Positions 9,222-11,173 of a stretch of DNA of 64,000 nucleotides are shown piece by piece; the first letter of the stretch is position 1; every line of letters starts with the position of its first letter. The notes under the pieces are model-generated. The model was not told the origin of the DNA, ran no database searches, and saw only the letters and a program-made list of their open reading frames with translations. Made by a program: the position numbers and the translations under genes. The stretch spans positions 1 through 64,000 of the forward strand of contig JBFMGC010000013.1 of assembly GCA_040752815.1 (NCBI GenBank). The letters run 5' to 3'. The stretch is from Candidatus Zixiibacteriota bacterium (GTDB lineage: Bacteria > Zixibacteria > MSB-5A5 > GN15 > FEB-12).

Positions 9222-9839
9222 TCAGTTTCGTTGCCGCAGAGTTGTCTGGTAGAGGCAATCCACCCAGGCGATCAGCGCGAGCGCCATACCGGCCAGCACA
9301 ATCGTGTTAGCGGGGCCGCCTTCGACGACGAGAGCCCTTTGGACAGTATCCACGGCGCTCGCCAGCGGCGCAACGACCCAGATCGCCACCATATCGGATA
9401 GAGGGAACACAGCCGACAGCACGTTCAGCATCGCGACGACCTGCTGCTGCCAGTTCATCACGGCGCCGGCAGCCTGCACAATAATAAGGTCGACAGGCAC
9501 CTGTCCGACCAACCACAACAGGCTTATGGCCAGACTTGCCAGCCAAATGCCAGCCGACTGCAAGCGGGCACGGGTCCGGCGCGCCCTAAACGGCGGCAGC
9601 GAAAAGGTCACTTTTCGGGCGAAATTTTTCGGCAGGATAACTTTGCCGGAGCTCCCCAACTCCACGTACAGGTCGCGATAAGTCTCCATCTCGCTCCGGC
9701 AGACCGGGCAGTTATCCAGATGTTCCTGCGAATCGAGGTCTTTCCGATAACGCCCGCCGGAAACACCGATAAGCGGTCCAATCTCTCGGCGGTCCAGCAG
9801 CGCCTGGATTTCGATATCGGTCAGATGCCTTACGCGCAT
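9222..9839 (-). CDS. Membrane anti-sigma factor with zinc-finger-type N-terminus
   Basis: The 205-residue protein has a cytoplasmic anti-sigma domain with HLDNCPVC (H-x3-C-x2-C, residues 40-47), the zinc-binding pattern of ZAS/zf-HC2 anti-sigma factors. Hydrophobic segments follow near residues 98-122 and 170-195, so it is membrane-bound. Its start overlaps the sigma gene by 10 nt, which predicts translational coupling and a stoichiometric pair. It would hold the sigma factor until an envelope signal releases it. The sensed signal is unknown; the periplasmic loop is short and has no recognisable domain. Confidence 0.82.
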   Translation of the reverse strand: MRVRHLTDIEIQALLDRREIGPLIGVSGGRYRKDLDSQEHLDNCPVCRSEMETYRDLYVELGSSGKVILPKNFARKVTFSLPPFRARRTRARLQSAGIWLASLAISLLWLVGQVPVDLIIVQAAGAVMNWQQQVVAMLNVLSAVFPLSDMVAIWVVAPLASAVDTVQRALVVEGGPANTIVLAGMALALIAWVDCLYQTTLRQRN

Positions 9840-10417
9840 AGCTCCTCCAGCGAGTATCTGACCTGCAGGCGCTCCTTCAGTAGCTTGCGCGCCCGGAACA
9901 GGTAGCTTTTGACCGTGCCGTCGGGGAGCCGTAAGATCCGGCCGATTTCGGCATAACTCATTTCGTGAAGATGAAACAGGCTGAGTATCGTGCCGTAGAT
10001 CACCGGCAGCTTGTCGATTTCCTCGCAGACCCGTACCGCCGCTTGCCGGGAGCCTGCCCAGTGCTCCGGGTCGCCCAGCTGAGACATGCAGTCGTCGACA
10101 CCAATGCCCTCCGGATGGGTGTCATCGTAGAGTGGGAGCCGCTTCTTTTCCAGGTAATTGAGACAGGTGGTGTAGGCGATCCGGGCGATCCAGGTCGAGA
10201 GCTTGCAGTCAAAGCGAAACGCCTCGAGATTCTGGTACACCTTGACGAAAACATCCTGGCAGACATCTTCGCGGTCGGTCTCGTTGGGTACCATCCGGAA
10301 TATCATCTGGCCGACCAGGCGCTCGTGCTCTTTCACCAATTTTTTGAAGGCGGTGGGGTCGCCGCTCAGAATCCGGTCAACCATGTCCCGGGTTTCGCTT
10401 CCAGCCTGCCCGTTCAT
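9830..10417 (-). CDS. ECF-family RNA polymerase sigma factor
   Basis: The 195-residue protein has region 2 around residues 20-95 (EDVCQDVFVKVYQNL, then LSTWIARIAYTTCLNYL, the core- and -10-binding helices) and region 4 around 135-185 (MSYAEIGRILRLPDGTVKS, the -35-binding helix-turn-helix). Regions 1 and 3 are absent, as in ECF sigmas. No ribosome site lies at the proper distance from the ATG at 10417. The predicted ECF-type -10 box ends only 6 nt away, so the mRNA may be leaderless. It overlaps the downstream anti-sigma gene. The divergent membrane-protein gene has a mirrored promoter and may share its regulon. Confidence 0.9.
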   Translation of the reverse strand: MNGQAGSETRDMVDRILSGDPTAFKKLVKEHERLVGQMIFRMVPNETDREDVCQDVFVKVYQNLEAFRFDCKLSTWIARIAYTTCLNYLEKKRLPLYDDTHPEGIGVDDCMSQLGDPEHWAGSRQAAVRVCEEIDKLPVIYGTILSLFHLHEMSYAEIGRILRLPDGTVKSYLFRARKLLKERLQVRYSLEELCA

Positions 10418-10422
10418 ACCCT

Positions 10423-10452
10423 AATAGACTGGCCGGACAGGTTCAAAGTTGC
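10423..10452 (-). promoter_or_regulatory. Putative ECF-type autoregulatory promoter of the sigma gene
   Basis: On the minus strand, TGCAACTTTG (10453-10444) supplies an AAC-type -35 box. GTCTAT (10429-10424) lies 16 nt after GCAACTT and resembles an ECF -10 box. This is the left arm of a perfect 10-bp dyad whose right arm serves the divergent gene. Confidence 0.5.
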
Positions 10453-10464
10453 ACTTTTCTGACT

Positions 10465-10493
10465 GCAACTTTGGCCTCGCGATCCGGTCCAAT
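10465..10493 (+). promoter_or_regulatory. Putative ECF-type promoter of the divergent membrane-protein gene
   Basis: GCAACTT at 10465-10471 is followed after 15 nt by GTCCAAT at 10487-10493, matching the layout of the opposite promoter. It predicts a start near 10500, a leader of about 24 nt, and the GAAAGGA ribosome site at 10511-10517. Confidence 0.5.
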
Positions 10494-10523
10494 AAGCCAG
10501 GAAACCTGTTGAAAGGACTGACC

Positions 10524-10889
10524 ATGGAAGACGCCATCATTGTCGGAATCATTTTTGCATCGATTGTCGCAATCGTCAAAATCGTGACCGACGCCGTCAC
10601 GCGACGCCGGATCATCGAGAAAGCCGCCGCCGAACCGCAGGCGAGCAGGGTGCTGTTCGCCCACCCTGAGCTGGTCAATCTCTCGAGTCTGAAATGGGGG
10701 ATGGTTTTGGTGGGGATCGGACTGGCCTGGCTTTTCTCCCGCTGGATGCCGTACTACTGGCACGAGGAGACCGTATTCGGCCTGATGTTCCTGCTGGCGG
10801 GGGTCGGCATGCTCGCGTACTACCCGATCGCCCAGAAGAAGATCAAGAAGATCGAGGAGCGGGAACGCCGCCTGCCTCCGACTGCCTAG
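10524..10889 (+). CDS. Small membrane protein with two or three transmembrane helices
   Basis: The 121-residue protein starts at an ATG 6 nt after GAAAGGA. A first hydrophobic helix spans residues 4-22. A cytoplasmic basic stretch (TRRRIIEKAA) follows, then two helices near 55-72 and 82-98, and a charged tail (KKIKKIEERERR). The layout resembles small envelope proteins of the DUF6249 type, but the match is only by shape. It is transcribed divergently from the ECF sigma gene from a mirrored promoter, which suggests that sigma factor controls it. Confidence 0.72.
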   Translation: MEDAIIVGIIFASIVAIVKIVTDAVTRRRIIEKAAAEPQASRVLFAHPELVNLSSLKWGMVLVGIGLAWLFSRWMPYYWHEETVFGLMFLLAGVGMLAYYPIAQKKIKKIEERERRLPPTA

Positions 10890-11045: not shown

Positions 11046-11074
11046 CTTGATAGCAGCGCGTCACCCCCATAAAA

Positions 11075-11147
<73 letters not shown>

Positions 11148-11173
11148 AGTGATATACTTGGCAAAGATTTGGA

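Follow-up and report, generated by a model that had tools for sequence, protein, structure and literature searches.

The region between an ECF sigma factor gene and a divergent gene for a small DUF6249 membrane protein very probably carries two outward-facing promoters of that sigma factor, which would make the sigma/anti-sigma operon autoregulated and join DUF6249 to it in a small regulon of the envelope-stress type. We examined this region inside a 64-kb stretch of DNA (the window) from the 3.19-Mb genome of a Candidatus Zixiibacteriota bacterium, where the following features were located.

9222 to 9839, minus strand: putative anti-sigma factor, 205 aa; 10 nt overlap with the sigma gene; weak NCBIfam anti-sigma match (2e-4)
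9830 to 10417, minus strand: ECF sigma factor, 195 aa, sigma2 and sigma4 domains only (Pfam Sigma70_r2 8e-14, Sigma70_r4_2 3e-13)
10415 to 10423, minus strand: predicted leaderless start, TAGGGT followed directly by the sigma ATG (10417-10415); 12-nt GTC-to-ATG offset, the same in the sister genome G001
10423 to 10453, minus strand: predicted sigma-operon promoter, -35 TGCAAC (10453-10448), N18, -10 GTCTATT (10429-10423); present in 52/52 orthologous loci
10444 to 10473, no strand: 10-bp inverted repeat, two outward-facing -35 regions with a 10-nt gap
10464 to 10493, plus strand: predicted DUF6249 promoter, -35 TGCAAC (10464-10469), N17, -10 GTCCAAT (10487-10493); present in 52/52 orthologous loci
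10512 to 10517, plus strand: Shine-Dalgarno sequence AAAGGA of the DUF6249 gene
10524 to 10889, plus strand: DUF6249 small membrane protein, 121 aa (Pfam PF19762, 5.8e-11, above cut-off); orthologues in 52/61 related genomes

With sigma2 and sigma4 as its only Pfam domains, the 195 aa sigma factor has the makeup of the ECF class (group IV), and among proteins of solved structure it comes closest to SigW and E. coli sigma-E. Two further marks of the class were found: the downstream ORF that overlaps the sigma gene encodes a putative anti-sigma factor, and an AAC-type -35 with a GT-containing -10 precedes the sigma gene itself in 52/52 loci. The anti-sigma factor carries HLDNCPVC, matching the N-terminal H-x3-C-x2-C motif of zinc anti-sigma (ZAS) factors, and the C-terminal half of the protein is hydrophobic; HxxxCxxC also occurs in 47 of 51 ORFs downstream of orthologous sigmas. 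A Pfam scan of the window protein gave no zinc-finger match; the protein presumably binds zinc.

The arms of the repeat, 10444-10453 (CAAAGTTGCA) and 10464-10473 (TGCAACTTTG), are exact reverse complements separated by 10 nt, as a preliminary description of this DNA had reported. Read outward, both arms start with TGCAACTTTG, and a GTC box follows further out; counted from GCAACTT, the box lies 16 nt away on the minus strand and 15 nt away on the plus strand, in agreement with the 15-16 nt given earlier. A 10-bp dyad is by itself unremarkable and not statistically special: perfect 10-bp dyads with a gap of up to 20 gave 12 overlapping reports in the window, and ~1.4 are found per random window. 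The significance of the locus comes from the -10 boxes, their spacing and their conservation rather than from the dyad alone, and the dyad is no more than the product of two identical -35 boxes pointing outward.

To follow these sites through relatives, the sigma and DUF6249 proteins were searched in 61 genomes drawn from the genus, family and order of this bacterium, and the intergenic regions of 52 divergent loci from 51 genomes were compared. Each locus was scanned with GTC fixed, at least 4/6 matches to TGCAAC and a spacer free from 13 to 21, so the invariance of GTC across the 52 loci is by construction. Both promoters were present in 52/52 loci, and the spacer between the -35 and -10 boxes was 17 or 18 in all 104 promoters (SD 0.5; allowed range 13 to 21), giving a predicted promoter consensus of TGCAACwTT in which 17 or 18 nt separate TGCAAC and GTCNRAT. 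The preliminary description had named loss of the dyad in relatives that keep both genes as the check on its reading; every divergent locus keeps both promoters. Its claim that these are ECF promoters is thus strongly supported by comparative genomics, as is, from the promoter at the sigma gene in each of the 52 loci, the predicted autoregulation.

The distance between the two TGCAAC boxes, by comparison, ranged from -4 to 40 nt (SD 5.9), mostly 18-21, with ~10 in the window's own group and 40 in one genome. Because the spacer is fixed while the distance between the arms varies, the pair would represent two independent promoters and not a dimer operator. In one locus (L093, genome G045), the opposed -35 boxes overlap (-4) as one shared GTTGCAAC palindrome, so that the two promoters could not be in use together. 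Across the 52 loci and the Bacteroidota loci L123-L140, the inter-box distances cluster near 10, 20 and 41 nt, approximately whole helical turns; this clustering could reflect ancestry or placement on the same face of the helix.

KSB1, Caldithrix and Bacteroidota, the last with Spirosoma and Prolixibacteraceae among the members examined, show the same divergent promoter pair. At three Bacteroidota loci (L117-L119), the DUF6249 gene has moved to a position downstream of the sigma operon and is read in its direction; these loci retain the sigma promoter (scores 27-31) and lack its mirror image (at most 3.8). This natural rearrangement assigns the second arm to the DUF6249 gene and, together with the mirror promoter in all 52 divergent loci, bears out the earlier proposal that DUF6249 would be a member of the regulon.

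The gene pair itself is gained and lost as a unit. Neither the sigma orthologue nor DUF6249 is present in 9/61 genomes from several separate lineages, and the sole mismatch in their presence among the 61 genomes is one DUF6249 whose gene lies at the edge of a contig. GAC replaces GTC in both -10 boxes in Mucilaginibacter (L132) and one Bacteroidales (L141), and promoters within one locus were more alike than promoters of different loci (P = 0.0016, permutation over the 52 loci with kinship ignored). The paired change to GAC and the likeness within loci are both consistent with a single reader of the two promoters. A single sigma residue behind the GTC to GAC change in L132 and L141 was considered and rejected, since some sigmas with Asp at the candidate position go with GTC boxes.

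We then scored sites with a position matrix built from the 104 orthologous promoters. The two locus promoters scored 28.2 and 25.3, and still 27.9 and 25.0 when their own genome was left out of the matrix; they were the only sites scoring at least 16 anywhere in the 64-kb window. At a threshold of at least 25, where chance predicts 0.17 sites in the whole 3.19-Mb genome, three of all pattern hits in the genome qualified: the two at the locus and one before pspC. The third site, with a score of 26.2, precedes by 37 nt a gene of the phage-shock type that resembles pspC and has a LiaF-type region, and the sister genome G001 has a site scoring 28.3 upstream of pspC.

Simpler patterns were far less selective. 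The literal GCAACTT motif, put forward in the preliminary description as a means of finding the regulon, was not enriched: GCAACTT-N14-18-GTC matched 24 genome sites, fewer than the 45 matched by the reversed control. A looser pattern, GCAACNNT-N14/15-GTCNNNT, matched 14 sites in the same genome and 10 in the control; three of the 14 score at least 25, and the others reach at most 18.8. An Infernal profile search of the genome recovered the plus-strand site and missed the minus-strand site, as its filters are too strict for short motifs. A motif longer than GCAACTT-N-GTC is therefore needed, and it yields a very small regulon; because the pattern searches demand GCAAC and GTC and would miss weaker sites, the regulon in this genome is a minimum.

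The pspC site falls in a gap within the operon of a second, SigW-like ECF sigma/anti-sigma pair (L330, G000:C2; L331, G001:C9). This operon contains pspC in both genomes and also a LiaF-like gene in the window's genome. A site of the first sigma inside a second ECF operon hints at cross-wiring of two ECF systems. Other pspC genes (L290, L249, L242, L286, L302 and others) are preceded by a different ECF-like motif, approximately TGAATCTTT-N-CCGTATA, which keeps the same distance of ~46 nt to the start of the gene.

In relatives, the profile search placed sites before genes for an HlyD-type adaptor, ABC transporters, CAAX-type proteases and DUF2884 proteins. For HlyD, we took all close orthologues by protein similarity with readable upstream DNA. 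One HlyD paralogue had a site (22-29) in 13/14 genomes that carry the sigma and in 0/4 without it; six of these 13 sites had first been found by the motif itself, and with the motif-found ones excluded the counts were 7/8 versus 0/4 (P = 0.01, kinship ignored). A second HlyD paralogue had a site in 0/11. The lone exception among the sigma-bearing genomes, G023 (L327), carries hlyD and two MacB-type permease genes inside the sigma/anti-sigma operon, where they follow the gene of a 168-aa protein that contains cysteine pairs and matches no Pfam family.

Seen between divergent genes, a perfect 10-bp inverted repeat would ordinarily be taken for an operator, and a dimeric repressor or activator bound there could control both genes. 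This is very improbable here and, as the main reading, is refuted by the orthologues, whose arms stand anywhere from -4 to 40 nt apart while the distance from -35 to -10 stays fixed; moreover, loci from which DUF6249 has moved away retain one arm only, and single, non-palindromic copies occur before pspC and hlyD. There is next to no chance that the repeat acts instead as an RNA hairpin (a terminator or attenuator) with no promoter role. The perfect repeat with its short loop would suit a hairpin, and other repeats in the window resemble terminators. However, the conserved bases are those of the -35 and -10 boxes on both strands and not of a stem with a constant loop, the repeat sits upstream of both predicted transcripts, and the fixed spacer with a variable gap and the rearrangement in L117-L119 contradict this reading as well.

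The sites could also be true ECF promoters read mainly by another ECF sigma, with no true autoregulation. At least seven other ECF-like matches were found in the genome, pspC lies within the operon of a second ECF sigma, and orphan sites occur in two genomes without the locus sigma. The latter (L214 in G042 and L198 in G050, from one genus that lacks both sigma and DUF6249) are of the TGCAAC/GTC type, score 18.6 and 25.3 and precede orthologous copies of one gene for a secreted protein, and since they persist there, another factor may read a similar sequence in those genomes. Against reading by another sigma, the sites, the sigma and DUF6249 are gained and lost together, the promoter adjoins the locus sigma gene in every lineage, and the upstream regions of other ECF sigmas, from two paralogous groups, lack the motif (0/20 reach a score of 20). 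We consider this alternative improbable, and the locus sigma, and no other, is presumably the reader of the sites.

We next considered how the two genes would be translated. As described earlier, GTCTAT ends 6 nt short of the sigma ATG (10417), and an AGGG that almost touches the ATG is too close to it to count as a ribosome site. Transcription from ECF promoters normally starts ~11-12 nt downstream of the G in the GTC box. The distance from this G to the ATG is exactly 12 nt in the window genome (G000) and in its sister G001, where the ATG at this offset is the only in-frame start found upstream, so a leaderless sigma mRNA is predicted. The sigma start in other relatives lies 7-29 nt after the G, corresponding to leaders of 0 to ~17 nt. 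The earlier claim of a leaderless sigma mRNA thus fits both genus members, but most relatives have short leaders, and the transcript is presumably leaderless or near-leaderless. A Shine-Dalgarno match of at least 5 nt was found for 6/52 sigma genes versus 48/52 DUF6249 genes. Leaderless mRNAs are known in Flavobacterium at a low frequency of 5.5% (PMC9723704).

The sequence of the sites, their conservation and spacing, their co-occurrence with the sigma gene and their rarity in the genome are established, and they are consistent with the following mechanism. The anti-sigma factor would hold the sigma factor until a signal, presumably from the envelope, brings about its release. The freed sigma would then raise expression of its own operon with the zinc-type anti-sigma, a positive autoregulation in vivo to which promoter conservation and co-loss point, and the mirror promoter would switch on the DUF6249 membrane protein alongside. 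Co-induced genes would include pspC with the LiaF-like gene in the window's genome and the HlyD-MacB operon, coding for a MacAB-type export pump, in many relatives. The leaderless or near-leaderless mRNA may keep sigma translation low, and DUF6249 would be served by a strong ribosome site. The -35 boxes lie ~10-20 bp apart, a distance at which two polymerases would probably interfere with one another. More tentatively, and with considerable doubt on our part, the locus may form a conserved asymmetric switch in which the promoters are too close for joint occupancy by RNA polymerase, the sigma is leaderless and poorly translated, and DUF6249 is strongly translated. If so, promoter competition and weak translation would together limit autoregulation, a brake that is part of the locus itself and has been retained across phyla, with the overlapping -35 boxes of G045 as the extreme case.

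ECF factors typically recognize AAC/CGT-type promoters, are co-transcribed with an anti-sigma factor and are often autoregulated (PMC8103513). The module at this locus is therefore an envelope-stress-type ECF module of a familiar kind, apparently undescribed; a search of the available literature found no paper on this sigma factor or on the function of DUF6249. Judged from its sequence, the locus would share with E. coli sigma-E (RpoE) and B. subtilis SigW the sigma2 and sigma4 domains, a membrane anti-sigma, positive autoregulation, an AAC-type -35 and envelope-type targets. It differs from both in its -35 (TGCAACwTT), its -10 (GTCNRAT) and its 17/18 spacer, as well as in the H-x3-C-x2-C anti-sigma and the divergent DUF6249 gene with mirrored promoters. 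Streptomyces coelicolor sigma-E promoters have (G)CAAC at -35 and CGTCT at -10, similar to the boxes described here, and its regulon likewise includes a psp gene, pspA (PMC6767563); however, that sigma belongs to another phylum, has about a hundred targets and lacks a mirrored DUF6249 locus. The Bacteroidota ECF21 sigma/Dma anti-sigma pairs (Das1-Dma1) resemble the locus in placing an ECF sigma beside a membrane anti-sigma in related phyla, but Dma proteins span both membranes and carry a beta-barrel, whereas the anti-sigma here is short with a zinc-type motif (PMC13088901).

Our analysis provides a conserved promoter code and a first predicted regulon for an apparently undescribed ECF sigma in the poorly studied Zixibacteria, KSB1 and Caldithrix, and the presence of the same system in cultivable Bacteroidota such as Spirosoma makes it testable there. 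It would also tie DUF6249, a family without known function, to an envelope-stress-type response together with PspC/LiaF-like proteins, MacB-type export and CAAX-type proteases, and it is a clean system in which to study divergent promoters, perhaps in competition, of a sigma that would regulate itself. A tRNA-Phe gene (anticodon GAA) was also noted at 11074-11148 on the minus strand, shortly past the end of the DUF6249 gene.
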